DNA of 64,000 bases, from assembly GCA_028753945.1 (NCBI GenBank), contig JAPNXP010000015.1, positions 1,426,001 through 1,490,000 of the forward strand, given 5' to 3'. Origin of the DNA: Hexactinellida sp. DTS-2022 (Eukaryota; Porifera; Hexactinellida). The position numbers were made by a program, and so were the translations under genes. The notes beneath the pieces were generated by a model, which saw only the letters and a list, made by a program, of their open reading frames with translations, was not told where the DNA came from and did not search any database. This document shows, piece by piece, positions 6,663-50,006 of the stretch. Position 1 is the stretch's first letter; every line of letters starts with the position of its first letter.

Positions 6663-7812
6663 AGCAAATACTTCATATATCTGCTTTCCAATGAGCTGAG
6701 ATATAGGAGGCAGCTCTGTTTAATCAAGAGAACGTATATCATCAATATGCACTGTGTTCCAGTCTCCTCCACAGAAACTCATAAATTTACTCCCGTGTGC
6801 TTCTCTACTTAGTTGGACCAAGAATAATAGAAAGATATCACACTTAAACTCTCCTCTCTGTTCCTCTCTCCAGTCTTTCAACTCATCCACTGTCTTGTGA
6901 CGAGCACAAGCAATTAATTTAGCATTATCTGCTCCTCTCTCACACTGGACAAGTAATATCCTTTTGTGAGTCCTTTCTGTCGTCTCACTCTCCGAGTCTC
7001 CTCTCAAGAACTTATGAATCTCTCTGATGTACTGCTGTTCTGTCTGGAACTGCTGTAGAGATAGACTCCGTATCTGTACTGAATCTGTATCTGTGGACAG
7101 ACGCTGTTGCAATTGATCTATGTCCCTCTCTGTGAGAAGTCTTGAGTGAGTTGTAGCAAGAGTGAGATGTGCTCCTGTCGCATACCCACATATACCACTC
7201 AGTACCTGACTCAGATACTCCTCTAGGCTACCTAACTGTAGCTTGAAATACTCTGATATAATTTGTTTCGACTGGATAGAGAGATGGCTGTTCTTAACAC
7301 GCAACACCGCATCTGTAGTGGCCATTCTAAGTAACAGAGTCTGACTTCTCTCCAATACAGCGATCAGATCTACTTCATCCTCAGTAGGTATACCGTTTGG
7401 ATACATCTCTTTCATTACATGGAATACAATGGAAGAGGGTGTGTCATTATGATAACCTATGAAACAGTCTCCTGCACTAAACTGATTAACCCTCTGGAAT
7501 GCAAAATATTGATTATCATCAAGTGTCGAAAACTTAAGTGCCCACTCGACTAGGTATTCGGATACTTTGACACATTCTTCAGTCAGTACAGTGGACATAG
7601 TGAGGACATGCTTTTCAAGTCGGTTGATGAGAGGAGTAGGAAATCGTTCCTGTACAGTCTCTTTGTCAGCTACGACAATCAGTTTGAAATCATTATGTAC
7701 ACGACATTTCATTCTGTGGGTACCTAACCCCAGATCCACATACCTTTGATTATTCATTTCCATGTAATACTGGTTAAGAGCATCGTACAGAGATTCATAG
7801 AGGTTCTCAAGG
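6663..7812 (-). CDS. RNF213-like: end of AAA4 region, with stop and frame break
   Basis: Encodes RYVDLGLGTHRMKCRVH, then DFKLIVVADKETV and PTPLINRLEKHVL, a strongly conserved RNF213 stretch. The preceding segment (7764-7812) reads LLNLENLYESLYDALNQYY in this frame and belongs to the same protein. However, the frame upstream of 7813 must change by one base to reach it (extra base near 7824). After HIDDIRSLD there is an in-frame TAA at 6720-6722. The same frame then continues with TELPPISQLIGKQIYEVFA up to a GT at 6662, so the stop interrupts coding sequence instead of ending it. Confidence 0.8.
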
Positions 7813-10800
7813 TTAAGTAGTAGTTACTGTCTTACCAGATTCCATACACACTTTAATCCTATTGATGTTACGACAGACTGCAGAGTACTCCTGGTCACAC
7901 GGAAAGCTGGACCCGAATATGACACGGATACTCTGAATGTCCTGCTGCTTGGGCCACATATCTGGAGATCGAAGTAGGATGTTAAGAGCGGCATAGTTCT
8001 CTGTCAGCAGCAGGAGGTAGCGTGTTTCTCCGTGGTAAGAGCGAGATAGATTCATTAAGTTAGCACTGATTAGACCGAGTGGTGATGAGTCTGGACCTTT
8101 CTTATTATCAATAGGCAACATAACAAAGTTTAGAAAAATTTCTACTGGGTCGATATCTGATACTCCGCCGAAGTTTCTCTTAACAGCATGCACTAAAATA
8201 GAACGATTTAGGGTTGTATTACTTTCAATACAAATAAATACCAGCATTTTAACGAGACTATAAAAATCTCTGAGTCCATAATAATCTCTGCTAGAATTAT
8301 CTTTCTGTTTGACATTTTTTGATGTCAAGGTCATATACGCCTTAGCCAAAGATTGAATTCTCTTCTCAATACTTTTTAATATCGTGCCTTTATTAGATGT
8401 AGATTGGCAAATCCCATTAGCACTGGTAATTAATTCGTCTTTATCTGGGTCTCCCCTTGATAACATAATTCCCCTATTCATCTTAGCAGAATCAAGAGAC
8501 CAGTTAGATATGCCAATGAATGCAACATGATCCTTCATATCATCGAACTGAATGGGAACAACATCCTCCTCTTTGTCAATGGGCGTTTCGAAATGCTTTG
8601 TACATAATCCAATATCTTCTTCCGTAAATTCTACCTCTTCAGAGCCATAACTACTATCCTCAAGAAGAGGATGAAGTACTTTGAGAGGAAGTTGAGGAGA
8701 ATCTTCTGCTAATCCTACCTCATCTAGCACAACACAAGCTGTGAAATTGTTACTTCCTGTCTTACGCTGAAGGTTTCTACAGCTATTGAATACTCCAATT
8801 ATTCCATCTGCTGTAGATAGCTGACTGCACTGATACGACATAATTTGAACTTGTTTAAAGTTCTGTAGAATACTGCCGTCTGGACAACGAGCTCCTTGCA
8901 TGGAGTTGGATATGATGGATTTAGCAAGAGACTTGGAGCTGCCTGGCTTACCTATCACGAAAAGAGGAATCTTCAACTCAATGCATACAAACATCATGAA
9001 CACATTCTCCTTCAAAGCTGTATTCTTGGCTATATTAGCTCCAACTGTCATCTCATCTAACAGCAACTGTTGACACCTGTCTACTTCTCTGTGAATAACT
9101 TGACAGTCAATAATTGGTGTTAGAGGATATTCAAAAAGATCAATGATTTGCAGATCAAAATCATCTCTGTTTTGTAGTCTGGCTCTATAACATACGGCTA
9201 AAGATATAATCAAACTGTATGTTATGGGATCAATCCTATTAATAGCAGAAACTATTAAATTATTCATAACAATTTCTCCATCTTTACGATCCATAATATA
9301 GGGATGAGTATTGAAATCAATCATAGGCATTGGTTCAGGAGTTACTAAAGTATCTCGCATATCAGTTTCATCAGCGGACATTACACCATCATCAGGGATA
9401 CCTTCATCAACAGATGAAATTGCATCGGATTCATTAGAATAAGCATCGTGTTCTGGTCTAAAGTAATCAAGCTTAGAATAAAACCATAGCATCACCCTCA
9501 TTGCTCTCTCCACATCTCTCAAACTAACAAAGCTACACTCTTCCTTCCTTTCTCTCATGTAGTTCTGTGCACCAGCAAGAACATCACTTATCACATCTAT
9601 AATGTCATCTTCTGCTTCTATCGGGCTGTTACGGTCTCGTAGATGTCTCGCTACTATCTCACGTGTGTATGTCTTCTCTATGCTGTTACTCAACTGACCA
9701 AAATCCCACACCAATGGTCGTAAACTGGCAGGTAGCTCCATCACTCGATAGACCAACTCACGGAGAGGAACGTCTCCCAGTCTGTCTGTGGTCTCACTGG
9801 ACTTGGTGAAGAACCCGAGACCAGCAGAACTCAGTTTATTCAGCATCTCCTCTGTGTGATTGCGATAAGGATTACAGGCTGCTATGAACTGCAGTCCAAT
9901 GTCAGTGCGGATGTGTCTACCGTACATTCTCCTGTCACACATGATCTCTTTGATCAGCCCGATGGCTGGACTCGTATTAGCTTCATCAAAAAACAATACA
10001 GTATCAACCTGGTGTTCAAGATAATTCCTCTGTGCTAGCTTCTCAGCTTCCTCTACCTTACACATGACATCAGTCTCTGTAGTACCTCCATGTACCTTCA
10101 ATATTAACATGTTAGTAGCACCAGTCTGTAGGGCTTGTAGCGAACACATGAATTGAATGAGTCGCGTCTTGCCACAGCCTGTCTCTCCCATTATAACAAC
10201 GGGGATGTTACAACGGAATCTCATCAGAATAGCTAGAATCTTTCTCATGTTGTCAAGAGTTAATACATAACCAGAATCTGGGTCTGCTAGCCATTCAATA
10301 CCCATAACACCAGCAATTTTCATTATTTTTTGTATTTTATTTTGTTGATTGAAGTTTTCCTGAAGATTGACTCTGTTATCAGTCAATATTTGAAGGAGTT
10401 GTGGATGCATCATGTTGGTTTCTAGTACATTAGATGGATTATCTGAATCCACTAAGTGTCCTTGACTGGATATGTGGAATCCAAGAAATGTCATTGTGTT
10501 TCTGTCTGGATTGAAAAATATGTAAGGATGAGAATTATTCTCCCATTTTCTCCTTTCCATTACTTCAAAATGGGTAAGAACATTCGGGTTATCTTTTATA
10601 TTATTTTCCTTGAGAGAAGGTGTAGCGAAATCTCTCGACATTAGTATCATGAATTTCACAACAAACGATTTAAATCCTTTCCACTCATGTCCCATAATAC
10701 CAGATTGACAATAATCAGAATTGTCACAATCTGAAAGTTGTTTATCAAGAAATGATACGAAATTACGTACTTCCGTCCAAGATGGATCTACGATACCACA

Positions 10801-10866
10801 ATGTTTCAATATATTATTTAAGTTGTTAATATTTGATACTCTTCCAATGGTTTGTGATTCGTTCAT
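7813..10866 (-). CDS. RNF213-like AAA core (AAA3 and AAA4, both Walker sites)
   Basis: This 1017-codon open frame holds the heart of the protein. Walker A GETGCGKT is at about residues 227-234 with its Walker B DEAN near 294 (AAA3). A second P-loop GKPGSSKS is at about 639-646 with Walker B VVLDEVGLAED near 713-721 (AAA4). CGIVDPSWTEVRNF near the start is the family landmark before AAA3. All nucleotide-binding residues I can check are present. At the 5' side the frame must shift by one base in a run of six T (10866-10871) to join the preceding frame. At the 3' side it runs into a stop right after MESGKTV, where another one-base shift restores the next conserved segment. Confidence 0.85.
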   Translation of the reverse strand: MNESQTIGRVSNINNLNNILKHCGIVDPSWTEVRNFVSFLDKQLSDCDNSDYCQSGIMGHEWKGFKSFVVKFMILMSRDFATPSLKENNIKDNPNVLTHFEVMERRKWENNSHPYIFFNPDRNTMTFLGFHISSQGHLVDSDNPSNVLETNMMHPQLLQILTDNRVNLQENFNQQNKIQKIMKIAGVMGIEWLADPDSGYVLTLDNMRKILAILMRFRCNIPVVIMGETGCGKTRLIQFMCSLQALQTGATNMLILKVHGGTTETDVMCKVEEAEKLAQRNYLEHQVDTVLFFDEANTSPAIGLIKEIMCDRRMYGRHIRTDIGLQFIAACNPYRNHTEEMLNKLSSAGLGFFTKSSETTDRLGDVPLRELVYRVMELPASLRPLVWDFGQLSNSIEKTYTREIVARHLRDRNSPIEAEDDIIDVISDVLAGAQNYMRERKEECSFVSLRDVERAMRVMLWFYSKLDYFRPEHDAYSNESDAISSVDEGIPDDGVMSADETDMRDTLVTPEPMPMIDFNTHPYIMDRKDGEIVMNNLIVSAINRIDPITYSLIISLAVCYRARLQNRDDFDLQIIDLFEYPLTPIIDCQVIHREVDRCQQLLLDEMTVGANIAKNTALKENVFMMFVCIELKIPLFVIGKPGSSKSLAKSIISNSMQGARCPDGSILQNFKQVQIMSYQCSQLSTADGIIGVFNSCRNLQRKTGSNNFTACVVLDEVGLAEDSPQLPLKVLHPLLEDSSYGSEEVEFTEEDIGLCTKHFETPIDKEEDVVPIQFDDMKDHVAFIGISNWSLDSAKMNRGIMLSRGDPDKDELITSANGICQSTSNKGTILKSIEKRIQSLAKAYMTLTSKNVKQKDNSSRDYYGLRDFYSLVKMLVFICIESNTTLNRSILVHAVKRNFGGVSDIDPVEIFLNFVMLPIDNKKGPDSSPLGLISANLMNLSRSYHGETRYLLLLTENYAALNILLRSPDMWPKQQDIQSIRVIFGSSFPCDQEYSAVCRNINRIKVCMESGKTVTTT

Positions 10867-12643
10867 TTTTTAGTTCTTCTAAATCTATTGTTTGAGTAGT
10901 ATCACTTTGTGGTGTTGTTGCATTAAAAGCCTGAATACATTGGACATGGGGATAGAGTCTAGTAAAACCCGCCAATGCATTTTGACTATAATTCAATGTC
11001 ATTTCAATTACATAATAATCTTTTTCCCTATAGTACCATATCTCGCCTGATCTCTTACAAATCCCGCCTAATATGATCAGTTTGAATAAAATCGGTTCCA
11101 AACATAGCTGGACGGTAGAGGCTATATCAACATGATACATGACTCCATGCTTAATACCACTAACACTCCTCTTCAGCAACTGTTCAGCTAGATGTTCCTC
11201 TGAAGCTTGTTTACCGTGTAAAGCGACAGTCACAGCTGATTGCTCTCTCTCCTCCTCACTCACTATACCCTGACTCAACAGGTCTGATTTCAGATTGTTA
11301 ATATAGAGAGACTTACCTGATCCTACGCTATCTGATACTACTAGTCTAACTCTTGATTTCTCTTTGTCTACCATCCAAGCAGGTTCTGTGCCTTTGAAAA
11401 TTGCACGTCGAAGTACGGGAGAAAGTTTTTGACATAAATATTGCTTAATATCTGATGATTTTTGTATTGATAACATCGGTACCTTGCAATCATCAAAGGC
11501 AGCTGCCATATAAGAAAATCCTTCATTTTCTTCAGAACAGATTAACACTAATTTGTAAAGAAACTCTTCCTTTCCAGTCGTCACCATATTTTTGGATTGT
11601 TGGAACCATTTCAACTTAGAAACAGCTTGAACTGCTACATCATAGCTTAGATACTCAATTCCTATTATGCAGAATAGATAGAGATTCAATTTATCAGGGA
11701 TCATAACTGCTCGTCTCCAGAATATTTCTATTTCTTCGAGTCTGGTTTGAGGAGTACAAATCAATATTTCATGATAATAGGGCAGAGGTAGCTTATCATT
11801 GTCACTCATGTAAAGAGAGAGAACGAATTCTAACATTCCTTCTGAAGGTATCACAATAAGATTAGGAATTCCTGCCTTCAAATAGTAAGGAAATTCTCTC
11901 TCTGCTCGAATTTTAGTCGCACAAGATTGAAACAAATCCTCAAGGAAATAACCCAACTGATAAAGGTCTAGTACTGCATCAATGGTTGATGCTTCTTTAT
12001 TGGGAGGATTTAGAAGAGATTCAACTGAAGAATATGTAATGGGTACTTCATTAATGGATTCTGTGTCACCATCTGCTTCATTGTCAAAGCACCAAGTCAG
12101 TAGTTTATCCTTCAAACCAATACCTTCATTGTTATTAGTTATATCAATAATCCCACGAATAACTAGTTCTAATGGCAAGTCTGCTTCCTCACTCACTTCC
12201 TGAGCCAGTTCCGTTTCCATAGTACTAAAACTCTCAGGAAATTCAGTTTCTTCATCAATTGGAGTAGAGAATGACTTTGGTGTAGGCATGCACTTTGGTT
12301 TAGTAGGACCAATATGAGAGTAGTGAGTAGAGATGGCTGCAGATAGTGACTGCTTTGAGAAATCGTGTGTATTTTCATAGTTAGATTTTAAAGTGGGATT
12401 CCGTTTAGGAATAATATTAAAGTGTTCTAATGCTTGTTGTATATCCTGCTTGGAGACATCAGGGTTTAACAATCTCAGTAGATGGTACAACTGTTCCAGT
12501 TCTCTATCCTCTCTGTCTTCAATAAATGAACTTATTCCCTTCTGTAAAAACACTATCTGCGATATAGTATAGTAATTTAGGAAATAATGCCTGTTCCTTG
12601 CTTCTTCAACATTTACTTTCCAATCTTCTAGAGTATCCCTCAA
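10826..12643 (-). CDS. RNF213-like region before AAA3
   Basis: This open frame starts at LRDTLEDWKV followed by HYFLNYYTISQIVFL, the family segment preceding the AAA ring. It contains a degenerate P-loop-like VVSDSVGSGKSLYINNL that would fall in AAA2. To join the frame on its 5' side one base must be added at a run of four T (12648-12651). The two frames overlap by only a few bases and the protein is otherwise continuous. The family assignment rests on its position and the LNYYT segment. Confidence 0.75.
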   Translation of the reverse strand: MRDTLEDWKVNVEEARNRHYFLNYYTISQIVFLQKGISSFIEDREDRELEQLYHLLRLLNPDVSKQDIQQALEHFNIIPKRNPTLKSNYENTHDFSKQSLSAAISTHYSHIGPTKPKCMPTPKSFSTPIDEETEFPESFSTMETELAQEVSEEADLPLELVIRGIIDITNNNEGIGLKDKLLTWCFDNEADGDTESINEVPITYSSVESLLNPPNKEASTIDAVLDLYQLGYFLEDLFQSCATKIRAEREFPYYLKAGIPNLIVIPSEGMLEFVLSLYMSDNDKLPLPYYHEILICTPQTRLEEIEIFWRRAVMIPDKLNLYLFCIIGIEYLSYDVAVQAVSKLKWFQQSKNMVTTGKEEFLYKLVLICSEENEGFSYMAAAFDDCKVPMLSIQKSSDIKQYLCQKLSPVLRRAIFKGTEPAWMVDKEKSRVRLVVSDSVGSGKSLYINNLKSDLLSQGIVSEEEREQSAVTVALHGKQASEEHLAEQLLKRSVSGIKHGVMYHVDIASTVQLCLEPILFKLIILGGICKRSGEIWYYREKDYYVIEMTLNYSQNALAGFTRLYPHVQCIQAFNATTPQSDTTQTIDLEELKNERITNHWKSIKY

Positions 12644-15056
12644 TTTCTTTTACTTTCCATGAGAATATCATCCTGATGGTTACATTCTGAGAAAAGTTCA
12701 TAGCTAAGATAGCGCTGATTACCAGTCTCAGCCAATTGGATTACAATTGTTCCTATCTCTATTATTGTGTCTAATTTGTGATTAAATAATTGGGAATTCT
12801 CATAACTACTTGTGTGTGTGTCTAGACCAGGTAACTCAGACTTACCAACGACAAGCATTAATTTGCTACGAAACTCTCTCAGCTGTTCTAGAGAGTATAT
12901 TCTCTTCTCGCCATTCTCTCTTACAACACTTAGACTCACTATATCACAGAGATTCAGTGACTCTCCTATTTTTAAACAAAATTCTCCAGATTTGATAACA
13001 CTATCTAGTTGCATAAGAGTTGTCTCCTCAACTGATCCATGAGACTTCTTCATTTCCTCCCAAAATCTAACATTCTCTCCGACCTGTCTCAGCAGCTTAG
13101 TCAGCTCCTTATTCCTCTCAACACTCTCAATCACCTGTCTGCATCTAGCAATGAGTGTCTCGTAACTGGTGTTCTCGTTTATCTCAAATATGATAGGAGC
13201 AAAGTTAGTGCAGACAGAACTGAGACAAGTTATTCTATCCACATCCACTGGACTACCTCCACAGGTTGTTAGAGATATGTCAACGAATGTTTTAAGCTCA
13301 TTTAGGTCTTTTAGGTTGCTTCTTATCCACATTATGAATTCAATTCTATCAATAATAGCTTGTATCACGTCAAGATTGGATTTAGAGAGATTACTCAGGT
13401 TAGTTGCGACATTAATTACTTTATCAGTCACTTCCTTTAATTGTTTGTTTTCGAAGGTATGCTTTATGTTTTTCATATTTTGAATAATTTCAAAGTTACC
13501 GACAAGTCGAAGCTCATTTTTTAGCTTGATTATTAGGTTAGCACCATCAGAACATTGCTGTAGATCGGAGTAGAGGTGGATTTTATTTGCGCAAGTTTTA
13601 TGAAAGTTTTTTTCACCTGTTTGAATTTTCATACTACCATAATCAAGTGCGATTAAATCTTTCAAAATAGTATCAAGACTCTCAGTACCATCGAAATAAT
13701 AGCTCACATCAGAAATTAGAATAGTTTCGCACTTAAATTTATTAAGAAGATTGATTGAAAAATCATTGGCAGGCTCCCATATTTCTTCGTAGAATATTTT
13801 AATGTCAAATGAAGTTTGCATTGTAATCCCTTTTTGGTACATGTATTGATCAAAAACTCGAATGATAATTCTTGAATTCGATAGAGGAATACAAGCTCTG
13901 CACATAGAAACATATTGAGGGAAAGTAATGATTGCATTTATGTCTGGAGAATCAGTAAATATGTATGTATCTCCGTCAGGATAACAAATATCACCGATAC
14001 ATTCTTTTTCAAATTTGAAAGATAAGAAAGCAGATATTATTTCGCAGTTTACGTTATGTATAATTTCTATAAAGTTATTAAAATAACTCAGTAAGTTAAG
14101 CTGCTCTAAGATCCACTTGTACATCTTCAGACAAGAATCCAACTTAATAGTAATATTTTGAACAGAGTATTCACACTCTTTTACATTAAGAAGTATTCTA
14201 GTGAGGGTTAAGAAGTATTCCCTATTCTTATCAATCAATTCAAGATCTACTCCAGATATTTTGAAGTAATTTATTTGTTCAAACAAAGAGAAGAATTGTA
14301 TTGAAGCCACTTCAAGCATATTTCTAGCTTCGGCGGAAAGAAATTGATCAATATTTTTATAGGAAAGAAAGGAAAAGTATGTGTCCCAAGAAGTCCAAGT
14401 AACAAAATGTATTATCGGATTGAGATTAAAGTTACCTTCTTCATTCAGTAATATCTCACTGAATATGCTGTTCACCTTCTTCAGTTGTCCAGTTAGCGAT
14501 AATTGTTGATATAATCGCTTAACAAACTCATTTTTATCTCCTGACCTGATCGTCTGTAATCTTGAAGTAAGTTCCTTTAGAAATATCTCTTGTAAGAGAG
14601 GTGAATAGTTTACTTTTGTGTGAAGATGGATAAATATATCAATTATAAACTGTTGACTTAATTGAGGATCACTAAATCTAGTGACAAGAAAGTGTTCAAT
14701 AATATCAAGCCACTTAATCTTTTTAGGAAATTGATATTGTGTTATAATTTCTTCCCAAAACATTATTTCGTTTAAGTAGTCAAAATAGAACATGTACTGT
14801 TTTAAAATTCTGACCGAATACCATTTATGTACAAAATTATTGAAATATTCAACCATTTTTTCAAAAGGAATTAGTGGATAATCTGGTAAATGAGAATCAC
14901 AATAACTAAGCCCTTGAGATAGTAGAGTCAAACAGAGTTTGAACTGTTCTTGATTGAAATACTGAATTGGTAGTCTCATGTGAAAACAAGAATTAATTTT
15001 GTTAGACGATTAATGTCATGGACATCTAATTTTGTAGAATCCTTTGTAAAAGCTAT
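12640..15056 (-). CDS. RNF213-like N-terminal stalk region
   Basis: The main frame (from 14979) encodes a long alpha-helical, poorly conserved region typical of the RNF213 stalk. Upstream sequence 14980-15056 reads AFTKDSTKLDVHDINRLTKL in another frame. Adding one T at the T4 run near 14983-14986 would join them without a stop, so the ATG at 14979 is not taken as a real start. The 5' end of this exon abuts the 15-bp tandem array at 15071. A possible acceptor CCCAATAG lies there. Confidence 0.65.
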
Positions 15057-15430: not shown

Positions 15431-15572
15431 CTTCAAAAGTTTTCAAAGGCGTACAGGTCACCTGTTATTATTAAAATAGGCACCCTAAGTATAAAATATA
15501 AATCTTAATTTAATTATCAAACATTATACACAAATATATTTTTATTGGCGACAACAACAATAATAAAGCGGC

Positions 15573-17003
15573 ATGGAAGAGCCTCTTAATCAGCCTTTTA
15601 GGCTGATTAAGTCGCAAAGAGGAGGAAGCAAGCTGGTGGAGAGAGGCTATATATATGGGATACAGAGGAGAGCAGGAGAGGTGACGCATTGGCTTTGCGA
15701 GAAGAGAGGGGTTTGCAACGCAAGAGTTCATACACAAGGTACGGAGAAAGTGAAGCGCACGAATGAGCACCTCCATGCCCCTGACGAGCAGGCAGTGAGC
15801 TGCTGTGAGACCAAGATAGGCATCAAGAGGCGGGCACGGGAATCGCAGGACAGCTCGCACCACATAGTGGGGGAGAGTATGGTGACGGTATCTGAGGGCA
15901 CGGCTGTTAAGCTACCCAAGCTGGACAGCCTGAAGCGAACAATACAGCGCCAGCGCGTGCAGCAGCTGGCAGCCCCGGTGCAGCCTGCCGGTCTGGAGGA
16001 GCTGGTGCTACCGGCAGAGTACCAGCAGACAGCCAAGGGGGAGCAGTTCCTCCTCTACGACTCGGGACCGGGGACGCAGAGGATCCTCATCTTCGGGACA
16101 CAGCGCAACCTGGAGATGCTGCGACTGTCGGACTACTGGATGGCTGACGGCACCTTCAAGACGGCGCCCTCCCTCTTCGCCCAGGTGTATGTGGTGCATG
16201 CACTCCGTGGAGGGCCTCATGTCATGCGGGATGGTCACCTGCTGCCGAGTCTGTTCGTGCTGCTGCCCAACAAGACGGAGGCTACCTACAGGAGGATGTG
16301 GGAGCAGATTCGCCTACTCTGTCCCCTTGCCCAGCCGAGGGGGATGCTCTTGGACTTCGAGAAGGCTGCGATTAACAGCTTTGAGGCGGTGTGGCCGGAC
16401 ACACTGGTCAAGTGCTGCTTCTTCCACCTCACGCAGAACGTATGGCGCAAGGTGCAGGCTGCTGGCCTGCAGGCTGCCTACAGCCAGGACGAGGAGCTGG
16501 CTATGCGCATCCGACACCTCCCAGCTCTCGCGTTCGCCCCGATCACGGATGTGCCCGGCCTGTTTGCAGCTGTAGCGACGCTGCTCCCGATGCCAGAGGC
16601 CGCCGAGCTGGTCCTGTACTTCGAGGGGACCTACATCGGGCGTACTCTCCCAGGCGGCACATACCAGGCGCCGCTGTTCCCTATCGACCTCTGGAACTAC
16701 CACATGGAGACGCCCTTCGGACTGCCTCGGACTACCAACGCCGTGGAGGCCTGGCACCGCAGCTTTAACGCCACTGTTGGCTGCCACCACCCTACCATAT
16801 GGAAGTTCTTAGCTGCCCTGATGCGGGAGCAGGGCCTTGTGGAGGTGCGGCAGGCTAAGTTCACCGCAGGAGCGGCGCCCACCAAGCGGAAGAGCGCACA
16901 GGCTAACGAGAAGAAGTTGACTAACCTAACAACCAGCTATTATAGTCGTAGTCGTATAGAGTTCCTAAGAGTCGTAGCACACCCTTTAGTAGAGAGGGAT
17001 TAA
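15573..17003 (+). CDS. FLYWCH zinc finger / MULE transposase, copy 1
   Basis: 476 residues, uninterrupted. The N-terminus has a FLYWCH-type finger (HW at 39-40, Cys42, Cys48, His66, His68). The centre is an MULE DDE domain: ADGTFK with Asp192, LLDFEKAA with Asp261, CCFFHLTQNVWRK at 281-293, and Glu392 in NAVEAWHRSFN. It would cut and join transposon ends in the nucleus. It is GC-richer than its surroundings. Residues from about 55 to 464 are repeated exactly in the inverted copy at 17021-18367. A perfect 11-bp stem (CTTAATCAGCC) occurs at 15585-15611 inside the first codons, so the true start may be later. Intact catalytic residues suggest recent activity. Confidence 0.85.
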   Translation: MEEPLNQPFRLIKSQRGGSKLVERGYIYGIQRRAGEVTHWLCEKRGVCNARVHTQGTEKVKRTNEHLHAPDEQAVSCCETKIGIKRRARESQDSSHHIVGESMVTVSEGTAVKLPKLDSLKRTIQRQRVQQLAAPVQPAGLEELVLPAEYQQTAKGEQFLLYDSGPGTQRILIFGTQRNLEMLRLSDYWMADGTFKTAPSLFAQVYVVHALRGGPHVMRDGHLLPSLFVLLPNKTEATYRRMWEQIRLLCPLAQPRGMLLDFEKAAINSFEAVWPDTLVKCCFFHLTQNVWRKVQAAGLQAAYSQDEELAMRIRHLPALAFAPITDVPGLFAAVATLLPMPEAAELVLYFEGTYIGRTLPGGTYQAPLFPIDLWNYHMETPFGLPRTTNAVEAWHRSFNATVGCHHPTIWKFLAALMREQGLVEVRQAKFTAGAAPTKRKSAQANEKKLTNLTTSYYSRSRIEFLRVVAHPLVERD

Positions 17004-18292
17004 CAGCCTAGTGATAGGTATTAATCCGCTCCCAAACTGAAATGATGTGCTACTCCTCTCAAGAACTCTATACGACTACGACTATAATAGCTGGTTGTTA
17101 GGTTAGTCAACTTCTTCTCGTTAGCCTGTGCGCTCTTCCGCTTGGTGGGCGCCGCTCCTGCGGTGAACTTAGCCTGCCGCACCTCCACAAGGCCCTGCTC
17201 CCGCATCAGGGCAGCTAAGAACTTCCATATGGTAGGGTGGTGGCAGCCAACAGTGGCGTTAAAGCTGCGGTGCCAGGCCTCCACGGCGTTGGTAGTCCGA
17301 GGCAGTCCGAAGGGCGTCTCCATGTGGTAGTTCCAGAGGTCGATAGGGAACAGCGGCGCCTGGTATGTGCCGCCTGGGAGAGTACGCCCGATGTAGGTCC
17401 CCTCGAAGTACAGGACCAGCTCGGCGGCCTCTGGCATCGGGAGCAGCGTCGCTACAGCTGCAAACAGGCCGGGCACATCCGTGATCGGGGCGAACGCGAG
17501 AGCTGGGAGGTGTCGGATGCGCATAGCCAGCTCCTCGTCCTGGCTGTAGGCAGCCTGCAGGCCAGCAGCCTGCACCTTGCGCCATACGTTCTGCGTGAGG
17601 TGGAAGAAGCAGCACTTGACCAGTGTGTCCGGCCACACCGCCTCAAAGCTGTTAATCGCAGCCTTCTCGAAGTCCAAGAGCATCCCCCTCGGCTGGGCAA
17701 GGGGACAGAGTAGGCGAATCTGCTCCCACATCCTCCTGTAGGTAGCCTCCGTCTTGTTGGGCAGCAGCACGAACAGACTCGGCAGCAGGTGACCATCCCG
17801 CATGACATGAGGCCCTCCACGGAGTGCATGCACCACATACACCTGGGCGAAGAGGGAGGGCGCCGTCTTGAAGGTGCCGTCAGCCATCCAGTAGTCCGAC
17901 AGTCGCAGCATCTCCAGGTTGCGCTGTGTCCCGAAGATGAGGATCCTCTGCGTCCCCGGTCCCGAGTCGTAGAGGAGGAACTGCTCCCCCTTGGCTGTCT
18001 GCTGGTACTCTGCCGGTAGCACCAGCTCCTCCAGACCGGCAGGCTGCACCGGGGCTGCCAGCTGCTGCACGCGCTGGCGCTGTATTGTTCGCTTCAGGCT
18101 GTCCAGCTTGGGTAGCTTAACAGCCGTGCCCTCAGATACCGTCACCATACTCTCCCCCACTATGTGGTGCGAGCTGTCCTGCGATTCCCGTGCCCGCCTC
18201 TTGATGCCTATCTTGGTCTCACAGCAGCTCACTGCCTGCTCGTCAGGGGCATGGAGGTGCTCATTCGTGCGCTTCACTTTCTCCGTACCTTG
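15735..18292. repeat. 1230-bp inverted duplication with 98-bp spacer
   Basis: Arms are 15735-16964 and 17063-18292, equal in length, with identical translations in several frames, so they are essentially identical. The first differences appear at both outer and inner limits. This is a very large palindrome covering almost the whole MULE gene. Confidence 0.85.
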
Positions 18293-18367
18293 GGTGTGAA
18301 CTCTTGTATTGCATTCCTCCCTCTTCTCAAAAAGCCATTGCCATCCTCTCCTCTCTCTCCTCTCCAT
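17021..18367 (-). CDS. FLYWCH / MULE transposase, inverted copy 2
   Basis: 448 residues, facing copy 1 tail to tail with about 98 bp between the identical arms. From TQGTEKVKR to RIEFLR the protein equals copy 1, including all DDE residues. The N-terminus differs and lacks the first part of the FLYWCH finger (it begins MERRERRGWQWLFEKREECN), so this copy is 5'-truncated or recombined. The last dozen residues also differ from copy 1. Confidence 0.85.
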   Translation of the reverse strand: MERRERRGWQWLFEKREECNTRVHTQGTEKVKRTNEHLHAPDEQAVSCCETKIGIKRRARESQDSSHHIVGESMVTVSEGTAVKLPKLDSLKRTIQRQRVQQLAAPVQPAGLEELVLPAEYQQTAKGEQFLLYDSGPGTQRILIFGTQRNLEMLRLSDYWMADGTFKTAPSLFAQVYVVHALRGGPHVMRDGHLLPSLFVLLPNKTEATYRRMWEQIRLLCPLAQPRGMLLDFEKAAINSFEAVWPDTLVKCCFFHLTQNVWRKVQAAGLQAAYSQDEELAMRIRHLPALAFAPITDVPGLFAAVATLLPMPEAAELVLYFEGTYIGRTLPGGTYQAPLFPIDLWNYHMETPFGLPRTTNAVEAWHRSFNATVGCHHPTIWKFLAALMREQGLVEVRQAKFTAGAAPTKRKSAQANEKKLTNLTTSYYSRSRIEFLRGVAHHFSLGAD

Positions 18368-18369
18368 CA

Positions 18370-18421
18370 GGTGCAGCTACCAAAGAAGCAAGGACAGAGG
18401 TCAAGAAGTGGTAGCTGCACC
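18370..18421. repeat. Short hairpin beside the MULE copy
   Basis: GGTGCAGCTACC and its exact inverse GGTAGCTGCACC are separated by 28 bases. It lies just outside the outer end of copy 2, within a CT-rich stretch. Its role is unknown. Confidence 0.7.
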
Positions 18422-21191: not shown

Positions 21192-21691
21192 CAGTGGAAC
21201 CTCTATAAGTGGGGGAGCTGGGACGGGGAAAATTTCAATTGCCCCCCATTCCCCGGTTATAAAATTCAATTGGAAAAACATTACATATGCTATATTATAC
21301 AAAATATTCATATAACACACACATTAATGCACGTTCTAGTTCTTATTTGTATATTATGACAATTTAGTTAACTGCTGATATACACTAGGTGATTTCTTCT
21401 AAAAACATCAGAGTAGATCAATCGAAAAAAAAATTTCTGTAGAACTTTAGAGTCGATTTATTGGAAATATTGTAATATTTTATAAGAATCATGTTAGGAT
21501 TTGTCCATTCCCCCCATTTATGGAGGTTGTTTTGTATGGAGATAAAAACTCCTTGAAATTTATGGTCCCCCATTCCCCACTTCCCCGCTTATAGAGGTTC
21601 ATTTGTATGGATATAAACGAATATGGTAAAAAAATTCCCCACTTATGGAGGTTCCCCATTTATAGAGACCCCACTTATAGAGGTTGCACTG
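21192..21691. mobile_element. Pogo/Tigger-like MITE inserted in an RNF213-like exon
   Basis: It starts CAGTGGAACCTCTATAAGTG and ends with the inverse of CAGTGCAACCTCTATAAG, with TA on both sides (21190-21191 and 21692-21693). CCCCACTTATAGAGG-like motifs repeat along its length. Removing it with one TA leaves the coding frame continuous on both sides. Confidence 0.9.
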
Positions 21692-23524
21692 TATTCTACT
21701 AAATAGAACAACAGATGTGTGGAAATTACCAAAATACTTATGTCCTATTCGGAAACAAATAGCGTCGACCTTCTTCCAATATTCTTTAAGTATTAGTGTG
21801 GTAAATTGAATGTTGACATAAGAAGTTTCGGATGGATCAATTTCTGAGTAAATTTTGAATTTTGTATTTAAGGATTGATGATCTGGTTGGGACTTATCGC
21901 TGTACTTATCCTCAATTCTCTTACTTTTACGGCTGCAGGAAATAGGATCTGAAATCTGAGAGTCTTCATTTTTACCCCTCTTTCGATTAGCACCATGAGA
22001 ACTATCTTTATCTCTTTGATTTGCTATTTGTGCGTCGGGTTTAGCTTTTAACTGAAGAATGCCATTTGTTGTGATGTTATTAGAATTTTCTCTATTGAGT
22101 AATTTGGGGAAATTTGATGAATGTAAATCGAATCGCTTTTCCTCTTGCTCCAGAGGCAAATCTACAACTCCAGATAGAGAAGAGTGTAAATCTGAAGGAG
22201 TTGTATGTGACAATTTCTTTTCCTGGACACTAGCTGGATCGCTTTCTCCGGGTAGAGATGATTGTACATCTGCCGGAGCTGAAATTGGAGGTTCCTTTTC
22301 TAGCTCGCAAGCTGAATTGCTTTCTCCAGGTAGAGATGATTGTACATCTGGCGGAGTTGAAAGCGAAGGTTTCTTTTCTTGCACGGTAGCTGGATCGCTT
22401 TCTCCAGGTAGAGATGATTGTACATCTGGCGGAGTTGAAAGCGAAGGTTTATTTTCTAGCTCGCAAGCTGAATTGCTTTCTCCAGGTAGAGATGATTGTA
22501 CATCTGGCGGAGCTGAAATTGGAGGTTCCTTTTCTAGCTCGCAAACTGAATTGCTTTCTCCTGGTAGAGATGATTCTACATCTGGCGGAGCTGAAATTGG
22601 AGGTTCTTTTTCTAATTCGCAAGCTGAATCGCTTTCTCCGGGTAGAGATGATTCTACATCTGGCGGAGCTGAAATTGGAGGTTCCTTTTCTAGCTCGCAA
22701 GCTGAATCGCTTTCTCTTGGTAGAGATGAATGTACATCTGGCGGAGCTGAAATTGTAGGTTCCTTTTCTAGCTCGCAAGCTGAATCGCTTTCTCTTGGTA
22801 GAGATGAATGTACATCTGGCGGAGCTGAAATTGTAGGTTCCTTTTCTAGCTCGCAAACTGAATTGCTTTCTCCTGGTAGAGATGATTCTACATCTGGCGG
22901 AGCTGAAATTGGAGGTTCTTTTTCTAATTCGCAAGCTGAATCGCTTTCTCCGGGTAGAGATGAATGTACATCTGGCGGAGCTGAAATTGGAGGTTCCTTT
23001 TCTAGCTCGCAAGCTGAATTGCTTTCTCCTGGTTGAGAAGATTGTACATCTGGCGGAGCTGAAATTGGAGGTTCGTTTTCTAATTCGCAAGCTGAATTGC
23101 TTTCTCCTGGTAGAGATGAATGTACATCTGCCGGAGCTGAAATTGGAGGTTCCTTTTCTAGCTCGCAAGCTGAATCGCTTTCTCCTGGTAGAGATGAATG
23201 TACATCTGGCGGAGCTAAAAGCGAAGGTTTATTTTCTAGCTCGCAAGCTGGATCGCTTTCTCCAGGTAGAGATGATTGTATATCTGGCGGAGATGAAAGC
23301 GAAGGTTTATTTTCTTGCACGCAAGCTGAATTGCTTTCTCCTGGTAGAGGTGGATGTAATTCTAGAAAAGGTAGCCTCTCCTTAAGTTCAAGAAAATTTG
23401 GTGATGGCTTTTCATTTAATAATATTTGAGAACAATAAGGACATGCTTTTGCTTTTTTTCCTGGCAATCCATCTGGAAAATCTTCCCAGAAATCACATTT
23501 AGTATCTGGACAAAATTTAGACAT
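21692..23524 (-). CDS. RNF213-like N-terminus: zinc-ribbon-like start, coding minisatellite, CBM20 start
   Basis: The ATG at 23524 gives MSKFCPDTKCDFW and, later, ACPYCSQILL. This Cys-pair start resembles the zinc-ribbon-like N-terminus of vertebrate RNF213. Residues 58 to about 447 are 15 tandem copies of a 26-residue unit of the type SSLPGESDSACELEKEPPIS, acidic and Ser/Pro-rich, probably disordered. A basic linker with KRGKNEDSQ follows. Then comes the first half of the CBM20-like domain (SYVNIQFTTLILKEYW, IGHKYFGNFHTSVVLFSRI), which is cut by the MITE. This is the most upstream coding sequence and the likely gene start. Confidence 0.75.
22184..23353 (-). repeat. 78-bp coding minisatellite, 15 units
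   Basis: Fifteen in-frame 26-codon units plus a degenerate sixteenth. Two recurrent unit subtypes alternate (ELEKEPPISAPPDV and QEKKPSLSTPPDV), suggesting local duplication and unequal exchange. The opposite strand is also open here only because of the repeat. Confidence 0.9.
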
Positions 23525-23791
23525 GTTGCATCATTTTCGGTTTCTGTTAGAAATAAATCTAAATCTGTAATGGAAATATTTCAAGATTGATAGATAATTA
23601 CAATAGGCCCTAGCAAATTCGACACTCTTGCAGTATACTGATAAAAAAATTGTTGGATTATTGAATGTCCCATTATAAAAGACATTATATTTCCAACCAA
23701 ATTGTGAGATGTGTATCCTATAAGTCGCAATAAGCGAGCGTTCAATTTAGAGGAGCACCGGATAGGAAATTTTGCTTACCTATTATTTATA
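23525..23791. other. Upstream flank of the RNF213-like start
   Basis: Presumed promoter/5' UTR side of the minus-strand gene. I see no convincing core promoter motif. Confidence 0.4.
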
Positions 23792-26708: not shown

Positions 26709-27074
26709 TATTTTACTGAGTACTGAGCGAAAACATTCTAATCTCACATTCGATCTTGAGTATCGTAGTCCCTTACTCAACTCACCGTGGATAACATTGC
26801 TAAAATAATTAACTATATTTATATAATTTATTATATATACATAATTAATTAATGGCATTAAATTCAAGATTGTGTATGATACAAACAAACTTCAAATTTA
26901 TAAATCGTTCCTTTGTCCCGTACTAACTTGATAAATTGGTGTAAATATGTACCTTGAGGCGTTCATTTCATGTCGAAAAAAATCCAAAATTGCAGCAATG
27001 CCGACAGCATGTTCCTTTGGAGGCACTATCAATAAACCACCACCAAAATATAGTGCCACCTGGGCCGTAGCCAC
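26709..27074. other. No gene seen
   Basis: AT-rich; nothing recognised. Confidence 0.4.
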
Positions 27075-27232
27075 TGGTCAGATTGGTCAGGTTTCAACCT
27101 GACCACTTTTGGTTAATGAATTTTCCCAAAAATGGCACCACTCGGTCAGGTTGGTCAGATTAATCTGACCAATCGATCAGGTTGGCTAGATTAACCTGAC
27201 CACTCGGTCAGGTTAGTTAGGTTAACCTGATG
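27075..27232. repeat. GGTCAGGTT tandem/inverted repeats
   Basis: Units such as GGTCAGGTTGGTCAG and their complements AACCTGACCA alternate over about 160 bp, able to form several hairpins. It lies directly beside the hammerhead-bearing segment. Confidence 0.7.
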
Positions 27233-27281
27233 TAATAATCTAACCATTGATCTGTATACTAGTCGGCCGTACCGATACTAG

Positions 27282-27333
27282 TGGGGTTTCGTTCCATTAC
27301 AGGAACTCATCAGGAGGGTGACCCTCGACCCCA
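27282..27333 (-). ncRNA. Hammerhead self-cleaving ribozyme, copy 1
   Basis: Read on the minus strand: stem III strand TGGGG, cleavage triplet GTC (its G is the last base of that strand), stem I hairpin GAGGG-TCA-CCCTC, core CTGATGA, stem II GTTCC with loop TGTAAT and GGAAC, core GAAA, then CCCCA closing stem III. Every conserved core base is present and all three stems pair perfectly (5 bp each). Stems I and II are closed and stem III is open, the type III topology. Cleavage is predicted after the C of GTC. The surrounding 27240-27520 is GC-richer with hairpins such as GTAGTAG/CTACTAC, probably a retroelement relic. Confidence 0.9.
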
Positions 27334-27785
27334 TGACTACCCCTGGTATCAGGGTGGTCACTGGTCACGCTTATTGCCACGGTGACTCCTTAACAACCAC
27401 TCGTGCCTCCTGCCGGCGTAGTAGTCCCAGACTACTACCAGTCTCGATACTACACCTGAGACCTGACCACTTAGATTTTAGTGGCTTCGGCCCTGTCACC
27501 AAAGGAACATGTGTAGGCACAGCTGCAATTTTTTCTGATTCAAACAACAATTATTTAAATGTATTAGGAAATCCGTAAATGGCACTCATAGGATCCTCTC
27601 TATATACTAAATATTCCTGAAGTTAGAAATCATTAAATACGTGAAATAATTTTTTTGAAAGTGGGCGCACGTTGGATTGGATTTACTTTCGAGAGTAAAA
27701 CATCAGTGCATCGTGCGGTATGCATCTATGTATCTATCTATATTATTAATTAATACACAAACCTTTATGTGTGCATATGTCACCC
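27334..27785. other. Flank of hammerhead copy 1, no gene
   Basis: 27334-27520 is GC-rich with small hairpins and only patchy resemblance to the flank of the second hammerhead. 27520-27785 is AT-rich with nothing recognised. Confidence 0.45.
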
Positions 27786-27971
27786 TCAATACCCGAAATC
27801 AGTCAGTACCCGTAATGACAGTACAGTTTTCTAAAGACAAGTTAGTACAGTTTTTACTACTCAGTACAGTACAGTTTTACAATTGAATAGTCAGTACAGT
27901 TTACTAGGCAGTACAGTTATTTTGCGGGTACTGACTAGTCATTACGGGTACTGACTGGTTCCGGGTATTGA
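27786..27971. mobile_element. MITE with GTACTGACTG-type inverted repeats
   Basis: The left end TCAATACCCGAAATCAGTC and the right end mirror it around repeated CAGTACAGTTTT units. CAGTACCCGTAATGAC also recurs in inverse near the right end. No ORF. Confidence 0.65.
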
Positions 27972-27992
27972 CCTTAACATATATATATATTA

Positions 27993-28348
27993 GTTTGTAT
28001 GCTCCGAGTTGATTGAAGAAAGTGGACGGTTTCCAAATGTGATATTTGGCATATAGGGCTAACTTTTGGCACCCGCCAACAAGTTGAGGTTTCCACTCAA
28101 AATTTATCACACCTCGACAAGTTATGACGTCATTGTCACAATTCGAGAACCCTGAAAATTCACTTATTGGCACATAATTCGCGCCCTCTAAGAGATAAAA
28201 AATCTGAAAATTTAATAAAACTTGTACATTATTGATGCGGACACGTTGGTGTCCGCATCAATAATGTACAAGTTTTATTAAATTTCATATGCCAAAAATC
28301 ACATTTGGAAACCGTCCAGTTTCTTCCATCAACTCGTAACATACAAAC
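27993..28348. repeat. Fold-back element with a perfect 37-bp hairpin
   Basis: Outer arms GTTTGTATGCTCCGAGTTGA and the near-inverse at 28330-28348 enclose a perfect hairpin at 28208-28285: two 37-bp arms around the 4-base loop GTTG. The perfect pairing indicates recent formation or continued selection for the hairpin. Confidence 0.8.
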
Positions 28349-28494
28349 AAATATAGCACACACCCACCCACCCAGGCTTGTGTTTTAATAGTATAGATAT
28401 TGAAATTCTTGTTAAATTAAACATTCGGCAAGTGCAATCAGAAGAAGCACACTCCCATCCCGTCTGTGAGGGGCTTTTACTAGTAGAATCACAC

Positions 28495-28976
28495 TAAAAT
28501 CCCATTTTCAATTGAAATTCAATTAACTTTCAGTTTGACTTTGACATTCCGAGGCAACGAAGTATTTAATTAGGCCATAAAATTTGTAAATGTATTGAAA
28601 AGCTTATTCCACCCTGGCTACATAGATTGACATATAAACTAAACGAGAAAAAAATTCACCATCGTATGTATAACAAGGCCACCTGGGATATTCTTAAGAT
28701 TCTTTAGCCCACTTATTAATACACTATACTTTTATTTTTTTAATTCGAATTTGGAAGAAATTCTTAATTAACTAACTTACGTTAGTTAATTATATGAGTA
28801 GAACAAAACTGGTACTCGTATCTTGACTGATTTTAGCAAAAAATCCCGTTATTTTACTTGTATCATAAAATCTAAATATAGAAACAATTTCCAAAAAAGC
28901 GGGAGTTTGAAAGATTGGATGGAGGTCGGGAGGATGGGAGAAAAAATGGCAAAAATCGGGAGAGTTGGCAACCCTG
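28495..28976. mobile_element. Truncated hAT-like copy
   Basis: Reverse-orientation relative of the element at 4170-5122, ending GAGTTGGCAACCCTG. The other end is missing. Confidence 0.65.
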
Positions 28977-29439
28977 CTATTAGTGCTATAATATGTGACG
29001 AAATCTCTCCCAAATTTTTCATATTATACCAGTGGCGGACCGAAAAATTATTTTCTATTTTGAATTTCTTGATGAAATTTTCTGTGAGTAAATCCAACAT
29101 ATAGAACATGCGAAATAAGGGGACATACCTAATTTACGGAACGGAATGGAACAGTTCCGTATTTTGTTGATGCCTAATTTACGGAACGGAACGGAACCAT
29201 TCCGTAATTTGTTGATGCCTAATTACGGAACGGAAAGGAACGATTGATAGTTTATTACTGACCGAAACTCGTTCGATTAATTAAGCATTTATCACCCTTT
29301 CTGACTACAGAATACGTGAATAGTAGAATTGTATTTAATTATTGAAAGATAAATATTTGTATTAATTAAATGATAGATTAAATAAATAATACTATTAGAA
29401 ATAGGTAAGTGAAATCTGGTAAAACACCACTATCAGACT

Positions 29440-29651
29440 TTAGGACATCTTCTACATTACCATCTAAATGCTTTGTCCTTCATTTGGGTGACTGCTATAG
29501 ATACACAGGCTCCAATATGGAACCATTCAGAACAACTATGGCATCTAACCATGGGATTGATTTCCGGCATCCTACAGTAGCAATATTCCCTGATGTTTCT
29601 TTCAACGTTTATAATATCGCCTCTTCTTCTCTCTTTGATAACAGGAAACAT
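29440..29651 (-). pseudogene. PHD finger of the MULE protein
   Basis: EYCYCRMPE, MVRCHSCSEWFHIGACV and AFRW form a C4HC3 PHD pattern. The codon between AFRW and CRRC is TAA where an aromatic residue is expected, so the finger is cut before its last cysteine pair. PHD fingers usually bind histone H3 tails; here it may have guided insertion. Confidence 0.7.
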
Positions 29652-29978
29652 TGAAAATGTTCACGTCCAAGGCAGGTCAGCAAATGGTTCCGAAATAGCT
29701 TTTGATTAAAGCGATACTTACCAGGACTCTTTCCGAAACATAAGGCTGTTGCATAAGCTATAGCAAAGATCCCGCAATCATTAACTCCAGCTTGTTTGAC
29801 TATATTTAAAAATTTTAATAAAATCCACTCTTCCTTCGTACAAAGTAGACTTGAAATTTGTTTTTTCACATCTTCTGCTACGGTAATGAATAAACTATCG
29901 TACAAGCGTACTTCAGGGTGCTTAGTTCCAATTGTAGAAATTGTCAACCAATGATTAGACCCGCTGTGGTGAGCATGA

Positions 29979-30205
29979 GACACCGTAAATGTATCTCACA
30001 CCCATCGGGATACGACATGTGGTGGAAGTGGTTTCGTCCTATCACAAGGACTCATCAGGAGGGTAACCCTCGACCACACTACAACTGGTCTACTCCAGTT
30101 CTAGTTACCAGTGAGCCATGCCGTTCTCCTACCACAGGTACTAAGCACAACCCACCTACACTAGGACCCCTCTAGTGCACTCCTGTCAGCCCGTCATCAC
30201 ACCGC
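29979..30205 (-). mobile_element. 227-bp hammerhead-bearing insertion (retrozyme-like)
   Basis: The 5-bp repeat CATGA flanks it (29974-29978 and 30206-30210). It has no terminal inverted repeats, no poly-A and no ORF. It is GC-richer than its surroundings and contains the ribozyme at 30028-30077. Size, lack of coding and the ribozyme match small retrozyme-like elements, which move by reverse transcription of a circular RNA using another element's enzyme. Confidence 0.75.
30028..30077 (-). ncRNA. Hammerhead self-cleaving ribozyme, copy 2
   Basis: Minus strand: stem III strand GTGG, cleavage triplet GTC (its G is the last base of that strand), stem I GAGGG-TTA-CCCTC, core CTGATGA, stem II GTCC with GGAC around a TTGTGATA loop, core GAAA, then CCAC closing stem III. 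All core bases are present. Topology is the same as copy 1 (stem III open). The stem sequences differ from copy 1 with compensating changes in stems II and III, which supports selection on structure. Confidence 0.92.
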
Positions 30206-48991: not shown

Positions 48992-49707
48992 TTACTCCCT
49001 CTGCTCTTCTATCAACTGAAGCTGTGCTGAGAATACAGCCATCTGTTGATACAAAACTGCCTGCTGTAATGGAAGTAAGTCTGCAGCACTCAATAACTCG
49101 ACCGAATCATCTTGGTTATCAACAGTTCGCCTCCTCTTCCGACTTTTCTTCGATGGCTTATATGTCGGGATTTCAACTTCTGGAGATCTAAAATTGTACT
49201 TCCTTCAAATTCAACGGGACCCTCAATTGATGCTGTTAAGCTATTTGATGCTATTGGGATTTCATTGTTCCCAGCTGGTGATTGGAAAAAATCAACAGCA
49301 CCTGAAATTCCACTAAAAGCAGGGGTGTTTTGAAACATCTCTGTTACCCGGTCTGCAGAGTCAGAAATACCTCTATCTGCTGATATAATGAGCATGTCCT
49401 CGTCTTCGATACGTCCAGCAGTGTTTGTACCCCCCCCAGTCTTTCTGGCTTCCCTAAAGCTTGCATCAATTTTATGCTTGGCGTTTAGCTTAAGGTTGGT
49501 CCATTTTTTTTTCACATCTTCTACAGCTCTGCCATTGCCATATGCTGAATTAAGTTTGACTACAATGTCTCTCCAGATTTGTTTCTTCTTTTTGTTTTTG
49601 TCAGCACTATTTCCTGAGCCTTTCAAAATCTCACCTGCTGATTCAATTTCATTAATGAGACTACATTCTTCTTCTCTGCTCCAATTTGTTTTGCGGTTAT
49701 GCTCCAT
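48992..49707 (-). CDS. Harbinger Myb/SANT-like DNA-binding protein (one frame break)
   Basis: The N-terminus NWSREEECSLINEIESAGEI followed by QIWRDIVVKLNSAYG and VKKKWTNLKLNAK is a Myb/SANT-like trihelix, the partner that brings the Harbinger nuclease to DNA. After GSTI the protein continues in another frame as RSPEVEIPTYKPSKKSRKRR, DSVELLSAADLLPLQQAV and QLIEEQRE to a stop at 48992. Adding one T at the four-base run 49190-49193 joins them. Without that change the frame stops at 49090 after an unrelated tail. Confidence 0.75.
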
Positions 49708-50006
49708 TTTTTTCGGTATTGTAAACTTATTGCAAGTACTCAGCAGCTATTTATATTTACGGTTGGAGGCCGACTTACGAAATCATTAATGACACTGTTT
49801 ATTTCGTAACGCAAATGACGCAGAAATTTTGATGTCGATATGTTAATTTTTTGTTTTAGTGAACTGTTTCATGTTACAATATACAAAGCACTTGTTGTTT
49901 ATATGTTTTGTTTAATCTTTATGTAATGAATGCATTATATACAACTTATGCTCTTTGATATATAAATTATATTAATTGTATAGTAGCGTTTAAATACAAT
50001 CTTAAT

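Follow-up and report, generated by a model that had tools for sequence, protein, structure and literature searches.

The 64-kb window analyzed here (contig JAPNXP010000015.1 of Hexactinellida sp. DTS-2022, positions 1,426,001 to 1,490,000; coordinates below are those of the window) holds two hammerhead ribozymes, each inside a short unit that resembles the long terminal repeat (LTR) of a retrotransposon and that probably belongs to an animal LTR retrozyme. An Rfam scan at gathering thresholds gives two matches in the window, both to RF00008 (Hammerhead_3), both over the full length of the model (1–54) and both on the minus strand: the hammerhead of unit 1 at 27281–27334 (57.7 bits, E 3.3e-10) and that of unit 2 at 30026–30079 (58.3 bits, E 2.2e-10). 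With a gathering score of 48.5, these values bear out the type III topology that an earlier note on this DNA had claimed for both segments. When the sequence is read directly, the core elements GTC, CTGATGA and GAAA are unbroken in both copies, as had also been claimed, and the account given there of the stems is accurate: stem I (GAGGG/CCCTC) is conserved, and compensatory changes separate the two copies in stem II (GTCCT/AGGAC vs. GTTCC/GGAAC) and stem III (GTGGT/ACCAC vs. GGGGT/ACCCC). Cleavage is predicted immediately 3' of C17, which is base 27327 in unit 1 and base 30072 in unit 2. All evidence presented in this work is DNA sequence.

Comparison of loci around the ribozyme reveals sharp boundaries that define units of approximately 220–360 bp with TGT...ACA ends. 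Unit 1 (family D, 224 bp, 27231–27454, minus strand) carries one hammerhead, has TG...CA ends (TGTAGTATCG...GATTATTACA) and is flanked by an exact 5-bp target-site duplication, CCTGA, at 27226–27230 and 27455–27459 (TCAGG on the minus strand). Unit 2 (family C, 237 bp, 29965–30201, minus strand), likewise with one hammerhead and TG...CA ends (TGTGATGACG...CTCACCACA), is flanked by an exact 4-bp duplication, CCGC, at 29961–29964 and 30202–30205 (GCGG on the minus strand). Among the genome matches listed, unit 1 has two further matches over positions 1–224, at 90% and 84%, while for unit 2, 30 of the 51 matches listed (its own copy included) cover at least positions 1–235 at 93% or more, so the family of unit 2 has probably spread recently. 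Unit 1 is nested in a repeat with inverted ends at 26986–27532 (arms 26986–27006/27512–27532, 86%, and 27008–27025/27494–27511, 89%). We set aside the reading of this repeat as a miniature inverted-repeat transposable element (MITE) carrying the ribozyme, because unit 1 is bounded, within the repeat, by TG...CA ends and a 5-bp duplication of its own. The 5-bp duplication is found in 3 of 6 copies of family D (window unit 1, and loci L063 and L008 of our genome-wide set). Relatives of this family also occur as same-strand pairs roughly 350–370 bp apart (C2:5624853/5625224, C14:4308303/4308674, C11:12237740/12238087), which are perhaps small two-LTR elements.

Searches of the sponge's own genome (112.4 Mb in 18 contigs), all of which give lower bounds, found at least 68 scored RF00008 copies besides the two of the window, at least 64 of them over the cut-off, and the ribozyme and unit searches together place relatives of the window units on 18 of 18 contigs. 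The same model has matches in none of 14 control genomes. The type I hammerhead model RF00163 gives no match in the sponge genome and none in the control genomes either, so that this search lacks a positive control, and a 26-base ribozyme string has no match in viral contigs. The absence of further copies with covarying stems was among the things that, by the earlier note, would count against its claim, and such copies are present. In 63 distinct 54-mers, drawn from 88 copies chosen by a pattern in which CTGATGAG and CGAAA are held constant, standard pairs fill 91.6% of the cells of the 16-pair structure; sliding the partners lowers this to 43.5–62.2%. Changes on both sides affect 40 cells, compared with 4–12 after sliding. 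A less telling measure is the number of pairs with any both-side change, 6 against a shuffled mean of 4.1 and reached by 30 of 500 shuffles. The CTGATGAG and CGAAA columns and stem positions G29, C44 and A48 are invariant because the selection pattern fixes them, and many of the loci were recruited by the RF00008 search, whose score itself favors pairing. As to the host, the cyclin-B open reading frame (ORF) at 62152–63249 has its best named match in the glass sponge Oopsacas minuta (72%; an ENA protein reaches 93%), and by this gene the host is an animal, a glass sponge, probably of a hexactinellid lineage other than Oopsacas.

Target-site duplications extend to the genome-wide set. Of 90 distinct copies, 43 can be tested for a duplication, having two definable ends and no hairpin following, and these show an exact 4/4 duplication in 21 cases, 3/4 in 10 and none in 12, against 0–1 of 43 matching at each of 12 shifted control positions (L049 and L052, both among the 21, duplicate one another). 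The remaining classes include five copies followed by a hairpin and an inverted LTR, eight whose 5' end is not recognizable, and six classed as hairpin then interior, among which L073 is rather a truncated inverted pair; L079, described below, stands outside this count, having been dropped as a duplicate. Under earlier, looser TGT/ACA end rules, duplications were found in 22 of 82 copies, compared with 1–7 in shifted controls. A first count of end classes was dropped since its end pattern wrongly accepted CTCATCTCA, and the 90-copy count replaces it.

Two loci preserve the arrangement of an LTR retroelement with an interior. L079 (minus strand) reads as a TACT duplication, a 330-bp LTR, a 174-bp interior, a second 330-bp LTR that differs from the first by one base, and TACT again; its interior is non-coding and ends at its 3' side in the polypurine tract AAAAAGGGAAGGTGA, and the distance between the predicted cut sites is 504 nt. 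L035 is a multimer with five LTRs of a 325-bp family (two on the plus strand and three on the minus strand), three 161-bp interiors and a stray fragment, all inside a single CTAT duplication, and with 486 nt from cut site to cut site. In the interiors of both, a polypurine tract, (AA)AAAGGGAAGGTGA, directly precedes the 3' LTR. A third locus, L103 (minus strand), has two LTRs like unit 2 placed head to tail with GA between them inside one CTCC duplication, and 238 nt from cut site to cut site; it may be the source of a minimal 238-nt circle, or a two-LTR junction. For the L079 circle of 504 nt, the predicted fold has −203.7 kcal/mol (z = −5.4 relative to 60 mononucleotide shuffles) and keeps the hammerhead stems. 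The TG...CA ends, the 4-bp duplications and the two-LTR copies with a polypurine tract support the earlier suggestion that an animal may harbor a so far undescribed lineage of small retroelements with ribozymes, with the amendment that the window copies are single LTR-like units rather than complete elements.

Judged by sequence organization, the nearest plan is that of the plant LTR retrozyme, minus its tRNA primer site. In the interiors of L079, L035, L070 and L092 there is no TGG near the LTR end, the first TGG lying 89, 52, 135 and 33 bases into the interior, respectively, and the best match to the tRNA-Met primer motif TGGTATCAGAGC is 7/12 in each. What does lie at the junction of LTR and interior, in L004, L035, L041, L070, L079 and L092, is a hairpin of 14–16 continuous pairs, in which the last 7 bases of the LTR and the next 8 bases pair with a stretch 20–27 bases on, followed by a small mismatch and a short tip. 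The hairpin covaries in both of its parts across these six loci: the LTR ends CATAACA, CATGACA and CGTAACA stand opposite TGTTATG, TGTCATG and TGTTACG, respectively, and the bases after the LTR (TAATATCT, TAATAACT, TAATAACC, TAAGTACT and TTAGTACT) each face their own complement, with one mismatch in L041. Since these hairpins were first chosen by eye and by a hairpin rule, we also searched by similarity of the interior. Among the loci found in this way, an LTR end lies at most 220 nt upstream in these six and in no others, and the hairpin is present in all six; at L046, L055, L072 and a weakly matching L022 there is no LTR end in that range, which makes them uninformative here.

A related arrangement is seen in four inverted dimers, each consisting of LTR, hairpin and inverted LTR within a single 4-bp duplication (L018, CGTA; L069, ATAC; L043, TGAA; L104, ATAT). 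The arms are 99.2% identical in L018, 91.9% in L069 and 90% over the aligned stretch in L043, and in these three the inverted LTR continues straight from the hairpin arm, as would be expected if LTR copying starts from the arm itself and plus-strand synthesis later runs on into the RNA that is still attached. One arm of the L043 dimer (1345–1877) is without the ribozyme stretch. At L063 (1290–1560, minus strand), a further ribozyme family, with ends ...CGTTGACA, is likewise present as an inverted pair, and the inverted form is therefore not confined to a single family.

Candidate helpers for such non-coding elements are present, with 150 scored matches to Ty3-type integrase among 706 candidates in the genome. 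Two of the three Ty3-type elements examined, L099 and L100, carry LTRs of 175 and 177 bp and 4-bp duplications (CTAC and GTAG), and their polypurine tracts and LTR starts read ...GGGAAGGGTGA then TGTCATGAT in L099 and ...GAAGGGGGAATGA then TGTTATACG in L100. The retrozyme LTRs start with TGTCATGAT in L018 and TGTTATAG in L079, and LTR starts, polypurine tract and duplication length are thus common to the retrozymes and these two elements. A further 3' LTR at L102 (AAAAGGGAAGGTGA then TGTGATAAAG) lies 829 bases past an integrase match with an in-frame stop. In L099, Pfam searches on pieces find a zinc knuckle and a protease as well as reverse transcriptase, RNase H and integrase; in L100 they find no zinc knuckle and a protease below the cut-off, but otherwise the same domains. 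The order in both is reverse transcriptase, RNase H, integrase. The candidate primer sites of L099 and L100 are complementary to their own LTRs (13 nt at position 107 and 11 nt at position 104), which none of 3002 shuffled LTRs reaches in either case. They look self-primed in the manner of Tf1/Tj1 (PMC4600332), where the primer site complements the 5' end of the RNA within the LTR; in L099 and L100 the complementary stretch of the LTR would be a candidate for that end. The sponge retrozymes are unlike Tf1 in that the complement lies in the hairpin adjoining the primer site and not in the LTR: the site finds at most 5–7 nt of complement in its own LTR (six copies), compared with 7–9 nt in the adjacent hairpin arm. 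Where an RNA circle has been made by cuts within the LTR, a 5' end for priming of this kind may be missing, and a built-in primer beside the primer site would therefore be a natural adaptation.

The reading that we favor, to which we assign a probability of about 0.8, is that these are animal LTR retrozymes whose RNA would be freed by the hammerheads and circularized, primed at the junction hairpin for a Ty3-type reverse transcriptase, and inserted as DNA by a Ty3-type integrase. Both hammerheads would cut a transcript spanning two LTRs, and the piece released (504 nt in L079) would be joined into a circle. The Ty3-type RNase H would then nick the RNA just past the 3' arm of the junction hairpin, the 3' end created there would prime copying of the LTR, and a plus strand started at the polypurine tract would complete the linear DNA for integration. 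Copying of less than one lap could then give single LTRs, copying of more than one lap could give two-LTR elements and multimers, and copying on into the attached primer RNA could give the LTR-hairpin-inverted LTR form. On the more specific proposition that the RNA circle carries its own primer in cis, with a Tf1-like RNase H nicking the covarying hairpin, the circle replacing strand transfer, the hairpin replacing the tRNA and the inverted insertions being fossils of a covalent RNA-cDNA joint, the odds seem to us even.

Other explanations have to be weighed against this. If the units were ordinary solo LTRs of autonomous, coding LTR retrotransposons with an incidental hammerhead, it would be reasonable that single LTRs make up most copies and that Ty3-type elements are abundant, but the interiors of the two-LTR copies (161–174 bp) are too short for coding, no pair of units of the same family and strand occurs, among the matches listed, at the 4–8 kb spacing that a coding element would have (pairs of different families do, e.g., C14, C15), and L099 and L100 have LTRs of another kind (175–177 bp); we regard this origin as improbable. 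Somewhat less probable still is that fold-back or MITE-like DNA transposons acquired a ribozyme, in which case the inverted LTR-hairpin-LTR forms would be the actual elements and each single unit one half of such a form. The inverted dimers in a single 4-bp duplication would fit, as would the short inverted repeats at the unit ends (TGTTA...TAACA in L079), but this does not account for copies in which LTRs of the same direction flank an interior that has a polypurine tract (L079, L035), for LTR starts and a tract held in common with Ty3-type elements, or for the 21 of 43 single units that carry their own exact duplication. Contaminating plant or viroid-like sequence would be suggested by a ribozyme family best known from plants and viroids, and yet with relatives on every assembly contig, an animal cyclin-B gene in the window and copies bearing their own target-site duplications, we give it next to no credence.

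The alternative that comes closest to the reading of animal LTR retrozymes keeps the plan and changes the primer: a tRNA or half-tRNA would bind elsewhere, and the junction hairpin would be structural, like the U5-IR stem. Self-priming has been deduced here from sequence, and Tf1 too requires a U5-IR-like RNA structure (according to a reference title in PMC4600332), but besides the distant position of the first TGG, the 8 bases after the LTR vary among copies and the complement 20–27 nt on varies with them, so that no single tRNA can match, and the inverted LTR runs straight on from the hairpin arm in L018, L043 and L069. A tRNA primer therefore appears doubtful to us, if a good deal less so than the three origins above. 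A number of observations also weigh against the animal LTR retrozyme reading itself, beginning with the fact that cleavage, circles and priming are proposed from DNA. Complete copies are few (L079, L035 and the nearly interior-less tandem L103) relative to many single units, which could be products of recombination or remnants; 28 of the 90 copies have no LTR end of type A, B or C, the 12 testable copies noted above have no duplication, and in family D the 5' TG is intact in the window copy but not in L063 or L008. The polypurine pattern is not enriched (76 matches with at most two mismatches vs. 97 for the reversed control). In the fold predictions, the paired fraction of the L079 circle is barely higher than in shuffles (0.67 vs. 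0.64), and the hammerhead of the 238-nt L103 monomer is predicted to misfold. Of 14 folded junctions, L042 and L011 have hairpins that omit part of the LTR end and L094 is truncated. The arms of L069 and L043 differ by 8–10% where aligned, above what a fresh self-copy would predict, so that one has to suppose either template switching or divergence at a later time in these two, and L104 has an additional inner hairpin and a shortened second arm. The ends of L101, the third Ty3-type element examined, do not fit.

Relative to known systems, the plant LTR retrozymes (Cervera et al., 2016, PMC4918200) are, as described there, alike in having a type III hammerhead in LTRs of approximately 330 bp, 4-bp duplications, a non-coding interior, a polypurine tract, Ty3-type ends, common solo LTRs and one RNA bounded by two hammerheads. 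The sponge elements differ in their animal host, in a shorter interior (161–174 bp vs. 300–600 bp) and ribozyme-delimited RNA (486–504 nt vs. 600–1000 nt), in a junction hairpin where the plant elements have a tRNA-Met primer site, and in their inverted LTR dimers and one family with 5-bp duplications. Because they have neither a tRNA-Met primer site nor an interior of the plant size, we place them outside the plant family and regard them as LTR retrozymes in a broad sense. Metazoan non-LTR retrozymes (Cervera and de la Peña, 2020, PMC7229834) are likewise small, non-coding animal elements with ribozymes and RNAs of a few hundred nt, but the parts of that paper covered here describe type I hammerheads in tandem copies that lack an LTR, a primer site and a polypurine tract and whose duplications exceed 4 bp, whereas the window pair matches RF00008 and lies in LTRs, and the sponge elements have the tract. 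The statement in the earlier note that the hammerheads reported from animal retroelements are mostly type I agrees with this paper and with PMC7761336 and a December 2024 review (PMC11722881), which, as far as these sources were covered, call animal retrozymes type I and non-LTR. Type III hammerheads in animals are known from hepatitis delta virus (HDV)-like circular RNAs and from termite and dipteran genomes (PMC7936874), but those are described as atypical because helix I is long and there is a loop-loop pseudoknot, and the copies in the termite genome as isolated motifs, whereas the sponge hammerheads are short, near the RF00008 consensus and inside LTRs. The bivalve TRIM elements with the GalEa Conserved Hairpin Site (PMC6934838) are also small, non-coding animal LTR elements without a clear tRNA primer site, for which the hairpin is suggested as a possible priming site; the main text of that paper does not use the words hammerhead, ribozyme or retrozyme, and its inverted repeats are of 9–10 bp and placed in the inner domain. 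Literature searches that left out subscription journals and preprints found no work joining the hammerhead ribozyme with Porifera, nothing relevant on hammerheads, self-priming and LTRs together and, in the portions of the papers since 2021 on type III hammerheads, retrotransposons and invertebrates that were covered, no animal LTR retrozyme named.

If a glass sponge has type III LTR retrozymes of near-consensus form, then LTR retrozymes would be of greater age than assumed, would have passed from one kingdom to another or would have originated twice, which bears on the proposal that viroids derive from retrozymes. The junction hairpin would also offer a concrete, testable way to prime reverse transcription on circular RNA in the retrozyme life cycle.

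Elsewhere in the window, two near-alike FLYWCH/MULE transposase ORFs stand head to head at 15567–18376 (Pfam was run on the first), within a G+C-rich island (0.604 over 16001–18000), and a DDE_Tnp_4 transposase ORF adjoins a 218-aa ORF at 49090–51050, the two together resembling a Harbinger-type transposon. Very long ORFs, one with AAA domains, occupy 6720–15009 on the minus strand and may represent an RNF213-like gene. The ORF at 21599–23530 contains 14.3 copies of a 78-bp unit (22232–23349), and between the two ribozyme units a perfect 37-bp inverted repeat with a 4-base loop (28208–28285) lies within a larger inverted pair (27986–28054/28287–28355).

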